Shown: positions 6,449-27,366 of the stretch, piece by piece
How the letters are laid out: each line of letters opens with the position of its first letter
Position numbering within the stretch: the stretch's first letter is position 1
Assembly: GCF_030273315.1 (NCBI RefSeq)
Contig: NZ_CP127174.1
Location: 2,604,001-2,668,000, forward strand
Origin: Natrialbaceae archaeon AArc-T1-2
Lineage (GTDB): Archaea; Halobacteriota; Halobacteria; Halobacteriales; Natrialbaceae
Direction: 5' to 3'
Length of the DNA: 64,000 bases
Notes under the pieces: generated by a model
Told to the model about the DNA's origin: nothing
Seen by the model: only the letters and a program-made list of their open reading frames with translations
The model's database searches: none
Program-made: the position numbers and the translations under genes

Positions 6449-7653
6449 ATGACCGACGACCCGATTCCGGTAACCGTCCTGAGCGGGAGTCTCGGCGCGG
6501 GGAAGACAACGCTGCTCAACCACGTGCTGACCGCCGACCACGACCTCGAGGCCGCCGTCGTCGTCAACGACATGGGCGAGGTCAACGTCGACGCGGAACG
6601 CGTCGCCCAGCAGTCGGACCTGGGTGGCGACGAGGAGATCGTCGAACTCTCGAACGGCTGTATCTGCTGTCGGCTCCGTGGCGACATGCTCGAGGCGGTG
6701 GGCAAACTCGCCGACAGGCGGGAGTTCGACTACCTGCTCGTCGAATCCTCGGGCATCTCCGAGCCGATCCCGGTCGCCCAGACGTTCGCACTCGGCGTCG
6801 ACGACGCGGCGTTCGACCCGACGGACGTCTACGAACTCGACACGATGGTGACCGTCGTCGACGCGTTCAGCTTCTGGGAGTCGTTCGACGCCGGGACGAC
6901 ACTCACGAGCGGGGAGCTGGAGGCCGAACCCGGCCGCGTCCCCGAGGAGGCCCTGCTCGATCAGATCGAGTTCTGTGACGTCCTCGTGCTCAACAAGTGC
7001 GACCTCGTCCCCGACGACGACCTCGCGGAGATCGAGGCCGTCCTCGAGCGACTCCAGCCCCGCGCGGAGGTCGTCCGGACGTCGTTCGGCGACGTCGATC
7101 CCGGCGAGATCCTGGGGACGGGCCGGTTCGACTTCGCCGAGGCGAAACAGTCCGCGGGCTGGAAACACGAACTCACACACGACCACCACCACGACCCGAA
7201 GGCGGAACACGGCGTCACGTCGTTCGTCTACGAGCGACGGCGACCGTTCCATCCGACGCGGATCGGCTCGCTGTTTCAGGACCTGCCGGACGCGGTGATC
7301 CGTGCGAAAGGCTTCTTCTGGAGTGCGGGCCGGGAGGACGTCGCGATGGGGATGAACAAGTCGGGGACGTCGGTCCGTGCCGGCCCCGCCGGAGAGTGGC
7401 TCGCGACACTCCCCGAGGCCGAACGGGAGCAGTACTTCGCGGCCCGTCCCGGTCTCAGGGACGACTGGGACGAGCAGTGGGGCGACCGGCTGACCCGGCT
7501 CGTGTTCATCGGCCGCGAGTTCGACGAGTCAGGGCTGATCGACCGGCTGGACGACTGTCTGCTCACCGACGCCGAGATGAACGAGGACTGGGAGACCTAC
7601 CCCGATCCGTTCGAACCGCAAGAGGGACGTGAACGCGCGCTTACGACCGAGTG

Positions 7654-7654
<1 letters not shown>
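6449..7654 (+). CDS. CobW/COG0523-family metal-insertion GTPase (first of two)
   Basis: A 401-residue G3E-family P-loop GTPase. The Walker A motif GSLGAGKT is at residues 13-20, the metal-binding CICC motif typical of the family at 71-74 (NGCICCRLRGD), a switch-like ESSGISEP near 103, and the base-specificity motif NKCD in VLVLNKCDLVP. A C-terminal CobW domain begins after a short His cluster (THDHHHDPK). Family members deliver zinc, cobalt or nickel to client metalloenzymes. It is divergent from nikR and overlaps the next gene, a paralogue, by one base (TGATG), so the two are probably co-translated. The metal is not known; NikR next door hints at nickel or zinc. Confidence 0.9.
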
Positions 7655-8952
<1,298 letters not shown>

Positions 8953-23898: not shown

Positions 23899-24124
23899 AT
23901 CGGATTCGAACCACAGGCTCTCGTTTCGGCCTGATGATCGGTCTCCACAAAGCGTCTCCTTACCCGCAGGTAGGGGTCGGGATCGCTACTGAAGGCGTGT
24001 CCTGTCACGGTCTCTAGTTGGTGACTTCCGTCGCTCTGGATCTCCCGACCTGCTAGATAGTAACTTTCCGCTTCGTGACCGTTGTTCCTGACGAAATTGT
24101 TCTTTCGTTAGAAATCTCGTGGAA
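23899..24124. other. Gene-free stretch between nif3 and the lysine-repeat gene
   Basis: No open frame with protein character is seen. A short GGATTCGAACC stretch near 23903 resembles part of a tRNA T-arm but has no matching cloverleaf. The stretch probably holds the promoter and upstream part of the long leader of the following gene. Confidence 0.4.
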
Positions 24125-24153
24125 GCTGGTAGCTCACCGATTACAAACAGTCC
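24125..24153 (+). promoter_or_regulatory. Conserved upstream block, copy 1
   Basis: The segment TAGCTCACCGATTACAAACA followed by GTCC recurs with few changes at 25290-25319. In both places it lies about 80 nt before the ATG of a Tat-exported lysine-rich protein, upstream of a conserved hairpin. Conservation in a region that is otherwise divergent suggests a regulatory role. Confidence 0.55.
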
Positions 24154-24181
24154 GTACGATGGAGTATTTCTCACCCACCAG

Positions 24182-24202
24182 ACCGACGGCAGTCCCGTCG
24201 GT
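24182..24202 (+). promoter_or_regulatory. Leader hairpin, copy 1
   Basis: Perfect 8-bp stem (ACCGACGG with CCGTCGGT) around the loop CAGTC. It lies 16 nt before the ATG at 24219 and just upstream of the purine-rich GGAGGGGAG that could act as a ribosome-binding site. A near-identical hairpin precedes the paralogue at 25387. Confidence 0.6.
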
Positions 24203-24218
24203 GGCTGGAGGGGAGACC

Positions 24219-24809
24219 ATGACAGACGAAGACCGCATATCCAGACGCGCGACCATCAAAGGTATCGCAACGACCGGTGCGCTCATCGGCGGTTCCATCC
24301 TCGGTGCCAGCTCCGCCAGCGCTGGCCACGAGAACGATTGCATAGATAACAACCACCGGAAAAAGTACAGCAAGTACAAGAAGAAAGGGAAGAAGTACGA
24401 CGGCTACAAGAAGAAAGGCAAGAAGTACGACGGCTACAAGAAGAAAGGCAAGAAGTACGACGGCTACAAGAAGAAAGGCAAGAAGTACGACGGCTACAAG
24501 AAGAAAGGCAAGAAGTACAAGAAGAGGAAGTATCTCGATGTCAAAGATCAGGTGTCATTTAACTTCGAATGCGTCGATCCCTACAAACAGCGGGCGAAGT
24601 TCCTCGTGCACCACGGGAAAGACAGGGATCTAAAATTCACCTACCGAGTTGCCGAGACAGGAAAGAAGGGAACGATCCTGGTTCGCGACGGAGTAGTCAA
24701 TTCCGAATTCCTCTGGGTGAAAGCCCCCAAGGGTAAAGCGACGGTCACACTGTACTACAAAGGAAAGCGCGTCGGCTACGCCAAGAGCGATCCGAACGAG
24801 CACTGTTAG
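24219..24809 (+). CDS. Tat-exported lysine-rich tandem-repeat protein
   Basis: A 196-residue protein. A twin-arginine signal (ISRRATIKGIATTGALIGG) is cut around residue 37. It is followed by a very basic stretch (residues about 46-102) made of a ten-residue unit, KKKGKKYDGY, repeated nearly five times. The C-terminal 85 residues form a beta-rich domain bounded by Cys (FECVDPYKQRAKFLVHH near its start, EHC at the end). That domain is paralogous to one in the next gene (shared WVKAPKGKATVTLYY). Such Lys density is very unusual beside an acidic haloarchaeal proteome. I chose the ATG at 24219 because both paralogues start MTD-(E/D)-(D/N)RISRRA. The function is unknown; binding of a polyanion (DNA, acidic glycan or S-layer) is speculation. 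Confidence 0.72.
   Translation: MTDEDRISRRATIKGIATTGALIGGSILGASSASAGHENDCIDNNHRKKYSKYKKKGKKYDGYKKKGKKYDGYKKKGKKYDGYKKKGKKYDGYKKKGKKYKKRKYLDVKDQVSFNFECVDPYKQRAKFLVHHGKDRDLKFTYRVAETGKKGTILVRDGVVNSEFLWVKAPKGKATVTLYYKGKRVGYAKSDPNEHC
24378..24518 (+). repeat. 30-bp in-frame tandem repeat, about 4.7 copies
   Basis: Units at 24378, 24408, 24438, 24468 and a partial one at 24498 encode KKKGKKYDGY. The units from 24408 to 24497 are identical at the DNA level and the first differs by one base, so the array has expanded or been homogenised recently. Confidence 0.92.
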
Positions 24810-25289: not shown

Positions 25290-25319
25290 GATCAGTAGTT
25301 CATCGATTACAAACTGTCC
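25290..25319 (+). promoter_or_regulatory. Conserved upstream block, copy 2
   Basis: GTTCATCGATTACAAACTGT and its flanks match the block at 24125-24153 and lie at almost the same distance (82 versus 80 nt, counted from GATTAC) from the ATG of the paralogous gene. Confidence 0.55.
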
Positions 25320-25348
25320 CTCTGAAGGAGGTGTCGGTACTCGCCGGC

Positions 25349-25367
25349 CCGACGGCGGTGCCGTCGG
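25349..25367 (+). promoter_or_regulatory. Leader hairpin, copy 2
   Basis: CCGACGG pairs with CCGTCGG around loop CGGTG. Stem sequence, loop size and distance to the ATG (19 nt) match the hairpin at 24182-24202, although the loop sequence differs. Confidence 0.6.
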
Positions 25368-25386
25368 TGGCGGCGGAGAGACGACC

Positions 25387-27366
25387 ATGACAGACGACAA
25401 TCGCATCTCACGGCGAGCGAGTCTCAAAGGTATCGCGGCGACCGGGGCGTTCATCGGCGGTAGCGCACTCGGCGTCAGCTCGGTGAGCGCCGGGGACGAC
25501 GGTTCCGGCGTCAAACGAGTCGACTTCAAAAAGTGCCACTCGATGGCGGTTCACTTCAGACGAAGTGCCATCAAGTCGGCGAAAAAAGACGTCGTGGCGA
25601 CGGCCACCGTCCGCCTGTACAACGCGGACCCGGGCGCGAACGAGAACTACATCGAGAACTACCAGAAGAAGATCACGAAAGGTGACCTTCGTGCACACCC
25701 GAAGAAGAAAGGTGACGGGAAGTACGTCTGGAAGTTCAACGTCTTCCAGTTCTACGACCGGACTCCCGAGGACGGAGACAAGATCCTCTCGGTGAAAATC
25801 GACGGCAAGCGGTTCGAGAACCCGAACAAGTGTGCGAAAGACGTTCCGAACGCACGAACGAAAAAGAAAAAGGGCAAGAAAGGAAAGGCCGACCCCGACC
25901 GAATCAACCTCATCGCCGTCTGTACCGACGAAGAGACCGACATGGCCCGGTACAAGGTCACGAACAACAACGCCAAGCCGGTCAAAGTCACGTACAAGGG
26001 CGAGGACAAGTGCGCAAGCGGAATCGTGAAAGTCGAAGCGAAGAGTACGACCTACTTCGACGTCACGGTGCCCGACTCCGGCGGCGACATGACACTCGAC
26101 CTGTACTACGGTGACTGGCAGGTCTCGGAAGGCGTACAGAGCGCGACGGAGCACGAGTGTATCCTGCGTCCACATGCGTTCAACGCAGAGTGCGTGAACC
26201 GGTACAGGACGAAAGCGAAGTTCTACCTCCATCACAGCATCGACTCGGATCGGACCTTCGTCTATCACGTCGCCGAGACCGGAGAGAAAGGAACGATTAC
26301 GCTTCGCAACGAACCCGGGAACGCCAAATCCTTCTGGGTGAAAGCTCCCAAAGGCAAGGCGACAGTCACGCTGTACTACGAGGGAGTCCCCGTCGGAACG
26401 GCCTCGAGCGCAGACGTCGATATCTGCGACCCGGTCGTGAACAAGACGCAGGGAGAAAGTTACGACACAATTCAGGAGGCGGTCGACGAGGCCAATGGGA
26501 ACGACCGTATCAAAGTGTTCGGCAAGCGGTTCGAAGAGAACGTTACCATCGATGTGGATGGGCTGACGCTAAAAGGAGTCTCCAAAAAGAAGAAGACGGA
26601 TAAGAAGAGGAAAAAACCGAAGAGGAAGAAGAAAGACAAAAAGACGAAAGGGAAGGATAAAAAGTCGAAGAAAGCCGGAAAGAAGACGAAGAAGTCGAAG
26701 GAAAAGAAGTGGAAGAGGCCGGACAAAAAGGCGAAGAAGCCAGTCATCGACGGCCGCGGGGAGGGACCCACCGTTTTCATCGACGCGGACGACGTCACGC
26801 TCCGCGGGTTCAGAATCGAAAATGAGGGCAGTAGACCCGACGGAGTCGGCGTCCAAATCGAACCCGGCTCGTCGGGAATCGAGATTTCCAAGAACACGAT
26901 CGTTACCGAATCGAGCGAGACGATCCGCGACGAGGTCCCCGACGACGACGCTACGAGCGATCTCACGATTGCGAACAACCGCTTGCACACGGACGACTCC
27001 AGCGTTACCTACATCCACGGTACGGCAAGCCAGGGATCGGAGGACGCCTCGAACGTCGACTTCGTCAAGAACGTCGTCACGGCTGACGGTCTCGGTGACC
27101 ATCTCGCGGTTGGTCTCGAGGTCGACGGCGGAACAGTCGCCAACAACTTGTTCGCCGATCCGCCGACGGACTTCGGTCACCTCGAGCTGTTTGGTCCGGA
27201 CATGACGGTCAAATCCAACAAGTTCCGGGGTCACAGCCTCGGGGACGACGCCTTCTACGTCGCAGACTGGGACAACACGTACGACCTTGACGCGATCCTC
27301 CAGAACAACCGCTTCGACCCACCCGCCGAAGTCGACGAGGACGAGAACGAAATCGTTCCAGCGTAA
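25387..27366 (+). CDS. Tat-exported protein: two Cys-bounded beta domains and a beta-helix interrupted by a lysine tract
   Basis: A 659-residue secreted protein. The Tat signal (ISRRASLKGIAATGAFIGG) ends near residue 37, and an N-terminal domain of unknown type follows. Next come two copies of a roughly 85-residue domain that begins and ends with Cys (LIAVCTDEETDMARYKVTNN and FNAECVNRYRTKAKFYLHH); the second copy is closest to the domain of the upstream protein. The C-terminal third is a right-handed beta-helix of the NosD type (ESYDTIQEAVDEANGNDRIK at its start). Residues about 400-451 are an almost pure Lys/Arg tract placed between LTLKGVS and PVIDGRGEG, inside what is normally one continuous helix turn. 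A smaller Lys cluster is near residue 158. It is probably a cell-surface protein; its ligand is unknown. Confidence 0.72.
   Translation: MTDDNRISRRASLKGIAATGAFIGGSALGVSSVSAGDDGSGVKRVDFKKCHSMAVHFRRSAIKSAKKDVVATATVRLYNADPGANENYIENYQKKITKGDLRAHPKKKGDGKYVWKFNVFQFYDRTPEDGDKILSVKIDGKRFENPNKCAKDVPNARTKKKKGKKGKADPDRINLIAVCTDEETDMARYKVTNNNAKPVKVTYKGEDKCASGIVKVEAKSTTYFDVTVPDSGGDMTLDLYYGDWQVSEGVQSATEHECILRPHAFNAECVNRYRTKAKFYLHHSIDSDRTFVYHVAETGEKGTITLRNEPGNAKSFWVKAPKGKATVTLYYEGVPVGTASSADVDICDPVVNKTQGESYDTIQEAVDEANGNDRIKVFGKRFEENVTIDVDGLTLKGVSKKKKTDKKRKKPKRKKKDKKTKGKDKKSKKAGKKTKKSKEKKWKRPDKKAKKPVIDGRGEGPTVFIDADDVTLRGFRIENEGSRPDGVGVQIEPGSSGIEISKNTIVTESSETIRDEVPDDDATSDLTIANNRLHTDDSSVTYIHGTASQGSEDASNVDFVKNVVTADGLGDHLAVGLEVDGGTVANNLFADPPTDFGHLELFGPDMTVKSNKFRGHSLGDDAFYVADWDNTYDLDAILQNNRFDPPAEVDEDENEIVPA
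26582..26740 (+). repeat. Adenine-rich, lysine-encoding low-complexity insert
   Basis: About 52 codons, mostly AAG/AAA, giving a local base composition quite unlike the GC-rich surroundings. It interrupts the beta-helix repeat of the surface protein and has no simple fixed unit, in contrast to the regular 30-bp repeat of the upstream paralogue. Confidence 0.75.

Follow-up and report, generated by a model that had tools for sequence, protein, structure and literature searches.

Exported Ig-like proteins whose disordered tails are built from repeats are a known kind of design. The bacterial Ig-like and Fn3-type adhesin and matrix modules (Big families, SiiE, RbmA) resemble P0001, a protein of the haloarchaeon Natrialbaceae archaeon AArc-T1-2, in the predicted β-sandwich topology and in the placement of an exported-type module on a disordered linker, whereas the P0001 domain has no significant match to the Pfam Big families, with a best E of 0.007 for a single member, and its fold matches are weak (E above 0.001). 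Bacterial histone H1-like proteins, which carry lysine-rich nucleic-acid binding tails, work intracellularly; the tail of P0001 is likewise disordered, Lys-rich and built from repeats, but P0001 bears an export signal and an Ig-like domain. The orthologs with a single domain that occur in the genus of Natrarchaeobius, such as that of N. chitinivorans AArcht4 (L004), share with P0001 the Tat signal, the Lys-rich character of the linker, the upstream element and a lone Ig-like domain with 63% identity, but their linkers consist of KKG repeats and others, contain less Tyr and lack the KKKGKKYDGY unit of P0001. Multi-domain haloarchaeal relatives from the Natrialbaceae and a few other families possess the same type of Ig-like domain and a Tat signal, and many of them are preceded by the same leader, but they comprise two to four domains and 280–620 aa and are mostly net acidic. 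No description of this family of Ig-like domains turned up in Pfam or in the papers searched.

Export Signal, Disordered Tail and Ig-like Domain of P0001

The gene lies on the plus strand at positions 24219–24809 of a 64,000-nucleotide stretch of contig NZ_CP127174.1 (positions 2,604,001 to 2,668,000), which was analyzed as a whole and is called the window here, and encodes a protein of 196 aa that has a predicted mature pI of 10.0 and matches no Pfam family. An in-frame GTG at 24075 would give a longer ORF, but the ATG at 24219 was taken as the start, since the Tat signal common to all orthologs comes right after it. An in-frame N-terminal extension encoded by the leader was rejected because both the distance between motif and ATG and the frame vary among relatives; the sequence upstream of the ATG is conserved as non-coding DNA. 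The signal peptide MTDEDRISRRATIKGIATTGALIGGSILGASSASA (24219–24323, plus strand), recognized by sequence and present in the orthologs and in a neighboring paralog, comprises a twin-arginine motif, a hydrophobic stretch and an AxA cleavage site (SRRATIKG...ASSASA|G), with cleavage predicted before Gly36 (ASA|G). Its conservation in the orthologs upholds the first-pass annotation, which had described P0001 as Tat-exported, and P0001 is probably exported. No Cys occupies position +1, and the first Cys of the protein, residue 41, lies outside a lipobox, so that P0001 does not qualify as a Tat lipoprotein; its sequence also contains no C-terminal anchor, C-terminal hydrophobic segment or transmembrane segment.

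Between signal and domain lies a Lys/Tyr-rich polycation tract (24357–24533, plus strand; pLDDT about 30), which is part of a disordered tail of ~78 residues in the mature protein; the linker as a whole contains 44% K+R and 12 Tyr and has a net charge of +25. In the AlphaFold2 models, which were run for four sequences, residues 1–103 of P0001 have no structure, while residues 112–196 form a confident seven-stranded β-sandwich (pLDDT about 90 or more). The repeat tract had been described in the first-pass annotation as “fibre-like”; since it is predicted to be disordered beside a well-folded Ig-like domain, a fibre or other ordered repeat was rejected, and with no ordered structure predicted for the repeat P0001 does not fall among the fibrous or fibre-forming repeat proteins. 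The first reading had mentioned neither the folded domain and its family nor the adjacent lysine-rich paralog, the separate arrays of the relatives and the conserved leader. The C-terminal Ig/Fn3-like domain (24552–24806, plus strand), delimited by AlphaFold2, domain alignment and profile, contains the two family cysteines, C118 and C196, and is itself basic (+8). When 29 domain sequences were compared with the Pfam Big families all remained below the cut-off, the best E-values of 0.0035–0.0074 being marginal and confined to a few members. With regard to the fold only, the seven strands agree with an Ig/Fn3-like domain, and the PDB matches found with Foldseek are mostly of Ig/Fn3 type, including SiiE, an adhesin, and RbmA, a scaffold of biofilms, although all of them are weak and none reaches E < 0.001. 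A mobile or phage origin was rejected, as phage and plasmid collections yielded no relatives.

A Recently Duplicated Repeat

The tract contains a tandem array (24375–24518, plus strand), which is in frame within the ORF 24219–24809 and reads KKKGKKYDGY, with five Lys and two Tyr per ten residues. A TRF run on the window returned it as a single array of 4.8 copies with a period of 30 bp, 99% matches and a score of 281; no other tandem repeat in the window comes near it. Three of the full copies share one sequence, which the partial fifth copy (24 bp) also follows, while the first full copy is one base off; no such copies are expected in shuffled sequence. In 200,000 simulations with codons drawn independently according to the usage of the host genome, the synonymous differences between the copies were never as few as those observed, indicating that these are recent duplicates or were recently homogenized. 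Both the count of almost five units, three of them identical in DNA, and the recent expansion had already been claimed from the first reading, and both hold. In a scan of 85,000 genomes for the unit, including the peptide KKYDGYKK, the sole confirmed hit was the N. chitinivorans relative, and this protein lacks the unit itself; the one further genome of the host's genus, 67% complete, gave no match. Elsewhere in the window, a hexanucleotide array (10 × ACCACG, 8384–8443) encodes a His-Asp run, probably a metal-binding loop, in the ORF 7651–8952, which by eye resembles a CobW-type GTPase.

Near-identical copies are also what fresh slippage products look like. The main rival to the tether considered below is a neutral or nearly neutral expansion, in which the charge plays no part: low-complexity sequence of any kind would be tolerated between signal and domain provided that it is hydrophilic, and slippage or unequal recombination would lengthen runs of purine-rich Lys/Gly codons. 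Such an expansion is a serious if somewhat unlikely explanation, and the tandem repeats that TRF found at other places in the window, which are not Lys-rich, argue against it.

A Polycation in an Acidic Proteome

To place P0001 within its genome, forty 20-kb stretches were sampled together with the window, covering about 26% of the genome; ORFs were called with a simple codon-usage method, which makes the individual counts approximate but leaves the gap described below intact. Among the 655 scored ORFs P0001 ranks first for both Lys content and net charge: the mature protein contains 27.5% Lys, compared with medians of 0.6% for Tat-like and 1.4% for other proteins, and carries a net charge of +20.6 per 100 residues, compared with about −9 for the sampled ORFs. 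The sampled Tat-like proteins have a median pI of 4.3, and the exceptional position of P0001 in an acidic proteome is in line with the pI values published for haloarchaea, whose distribution has its main mode near 4.5 (PMC4230888). The polycation is therefore genuinely exceptional, as the first reading had supposed for a Tat-type haloarchaeal protein. The richest 40-residue windows hold 25 Lys in the paralog P0002 and 22 in P0001, while the next best holds 7 and the median is 2, so that these two adjoining genes are the only Lys-dense ones among 639 sampled ORFs, which speaks against neutral expansion as well.

The composition of the tail resembles that of lysine-rich nucleic-acid binding tails, and a tail of the H1 type might bind DNA of the matrix or incoming DNA outside the cell. 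Haloarchaeal proteins that are not acidified are often ribosomal, membrane or DNA-binding proteins (PMC4230888), which would fit such a nucleic-acid binder. However, neither the gene surroundings nor the domain point to DNA, the Tat signal speaks against a chromosomal role, and binding would be weakened by molar salt. Extracellular nucleic-acid binding, which would be one particular form of the tether, is thus improbable.

The paralog P0002 (25387–27366, plus strand; 659 aa) consists of a Tat signal, an N-terminal region, two Ig-like domains and a right-handed β-helix, and has the signal, leader and domain in common with P0001, with 58% identity over the best stretch. Some 50 Lys-rich residues are inserted into its β-helix (26583–26739, plus strand); this insert has degenerate tandem repeats and includes the 40-residue stretch with 25 Lys. 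A single homolog was found for this region (G042, L088); it aligns on both sides of the insert, but has no Lys tract there.

Conservation of Charge Among Relatives

Within the family, 35 of 125 genomes match P0001, many by the signal alone. The nearest relatives are single-domain proteins present in all four genomes of the genus of Natrarchaeobius, including N. chitinivorans. Natrarchaeobius is a soda-lake genus (PMC12343721). In these four orthologs the linker at the corresponding position is Lys-rich (41–51% K+R), and the mature pI is 9.2–10.3; a frame broken in close relatives, which the first-pass annotation had named as counting against its reading, did not occur, since all four are intact and lysine-rich. 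Together with P0001 they form a set of five proteins in which the Ig-like domain is joined to a lysine-rich tail of 39–87 aa with a net charge of +10 to +34, while the tail sequences differ. Furthermore, the ortholog in genome G042 contains two separate arrays, one with a period of 30 bp (2.4 copies, 97%) and one with a period of 33 bp, which indicates that repeats expanded independently in the relatives. This suggests that the charge of the tail, and not its sequence, is what is kept. Across the relatives, linker sequence is highly variable and linker length ranges from 11 to 87 aa, and Lys-rich arrays also occur in unrelated Tat-type proteins of other genomes, both of which would be compatible with neutral expansion; by contrast, each of the five proteins from the two genera carries a strong net positive charge in spite of the Lys depletion of the remaining proteome.

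With two Tyr and five Lys per repeat unit, and 12 Tyr in the linker, P0001 might also be a matrix or adhesive protein cross-linked by oxidation of Tyr and Lys side chains, similar to the Lys/Tyr-rich glues of animals. The orthologous tails hold only 1–3 Tyr, so that Tyr is not conserved, and no oxidase gene was recognized beside P0001, which makes this cross-linking very improbable. A small, cationic protein with a Tat-type secretion signal could likewise be a secreted toxin or halocin-like defense peptide directed against competing haloarchaea, and halocins include Tat-exported peptides. Yet the design of tail plus domain is kept throughout the related genus, the other relatives are large multi-domain proteins of surface type, and no immunity gene was recognized by eye beside P0001, leaving a defense peptide with very little probability.

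More distant members of the family are less uniform. One more single-domain relative (G035) begins with an acidic stretch of 11 residues and carries a Lys-rich tail at the C-terminus instead of the N-terminal tail, which counts against the tether. In most multi-domain relatives the linkers are Lys-rich but charge-balanced (Lys with Asp/Glu), and the pI is 4.1–4.9 in 11 of the 12 computed and 9.2 in one. Positive charge is thus not needed across the whole family, which likewise counts against the tether. In 24 of 28 family members the Lys content reaches 20% or more over some stretch of 40 residues, which in a few cases lies inside the domains and otherwise fits the tether. The domain profile matches 51 of 391 sampled haloarchaeal genomes, about one in eight.

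Three further observations concern other genomes. One family member (G083:C1:159212-162389; L015, L073) is apparently split in an insertion-like manner, with the leader and Tat signal ~1–2 kb away from the domain ORF. In another Natrialbaceae genome, G090, a Tat-type protein without relationship to P0001 (278 aa; L046 8379–9215, minus strand) contains 36% Lys, has a net charge of +83 and consists almost entirely of K/Y/E/R, with tandem arrays. Genome G023 encodes a further protein of Tat type (171 aa; L035 5721–6236, plus strand), which has a 60-bp array of KKRDGKKKGRKKHGRRKKGG (2.8 copies, 98%), another independent lysine array in a protein of this type. Open-access papers yielded nothing on lysine-rich exported haloarchaeal proteins.

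Upstream Element and Leader Hairpin

Both P0001 and P0002 are preceded by GTAGNTCAYYGATWACAAAM, then a hairpin and then the start codon. The conserved upstream element GTAGCTCACCGATTACAAAC, delimited by genome pattern search and alignment, is located at 24129–24148 (plus strand) and has a second copy before P0002 at 25295–25314 (plus strand, by genome pattern search); with 0–2 mismatches allowed, these are the only two matches in the entire genome. Among 392 haloarchaeal genomes, 26 contain the pattern with at most one mismatch, at 29 sites in total, and a reversed-pattern control gave none among the matches listed. Of these sites, 25 directly precede members of the P0001 family. Two of the other four (G004, G076) are positioned 27–47 bp before other Tat-type ORFs, which points to the GATWACAAA part as a core promoter. 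A core promoter within the element, with GATTACAAA as its TATA-like part, is therefore probable as judged from the sequence.

The 5′-leader hairpin, CCAG-a-CCGACGG-cagtc-CCGTCGG-tgg-CTGG (24178–24208, plus strand; folding and covariation), is situated just 5′ of the P0001 start codon, and the corresponding hairpin of P0002, found by alignment and folding, is at 25344–25375 (plus strand). Upstream element and hairpin are family-specific and are conserved across about ten genera (relatives L001–L031) despite strong divergence of the proteins, with L017 and L018 lacking the same hairpin sequence. The P0001 hairpin has a folding z of −3.6, and over 15 relatives 93% of the cells are paired, compared with 18–60% in slid controls. 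Seven double-sided changes were counted, against 2.8 expected from shuffles, although in the imperfect alignment only two pairs have compensatory changes, a number of pairs not above that in the shuffles. The comparison thus speaks modestly for the hairpin as a conserved structure. An Rfam search of the leader returned no family at E up to 1.

A Proposed Electrostatic Tether at the Cell Surface

The most likely role of the tail is that of a tether, because P0001 lacks a lipobox, a C-terminal anchor and a transmembrane segment; a tail that binds polyanions best explains why charge but not sequence is kept in an unanchored exported protein beside a folded module. We tentatively propose, at a little less than an even chance, that P0001 is an exported, non-anchored Ig-like protein kept on acidic polymers of the surface or matrix by its disordered polycation, in which charge is conserved and sequence is not. 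P0001 would be exported in a folded state through the Tat pathway and its signal cut at ASA|G, such that the mature protein would begin with the Lys/Tyr-rich disordered tail, followed by the Ig/Fn3-like β-sandwich. The tail would serve as a multivalent tether, acting through electrostatic and cation-π contacts, that keeps the domain on extracellular acidic polymers, with the S-layer glycoprotein and its glycans, acidic exopolysaccharide and possibly extracellular DNA as candidate ligands; both the surface-binding role and the ligand are deduced from sequence and prediction. As charge density is conserved but sequence is not, the tail would grow by tandem duplication of whichever unit is there, and the KKKGKKYDGY array would be the latest such event in this genome. 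Molar salt strongly screens electrostatic attraction, which is a real objection to the tether.

Haloarchaeal proteomes are strongly acidic, and their exported proteins are no exception. A family of such proteins that keeps a lysine polycation, assembled from other repeats in other species, would offer a natural test of polycation–polyanion binding in molar salt. Rather doubtful, but wider in reach, is the idea that the Natrialbaceae possess a family of exported Ig-like proteins, with a dedicated promoter and hairpin-containing leader, in which a disordered lysine polycation, repeatedly renewed by lineage-specific tandem repeats, acts as an electrostatic anchor on the acidic surface or matrix at molar salt without lipids, PGF-CTERM or S-layer domains. 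The family would at the same time add an uncharacterized type of Ig-like domain with its own conserved leader, which occurs in about one in eight of the sampled haloarchaeal genomes.
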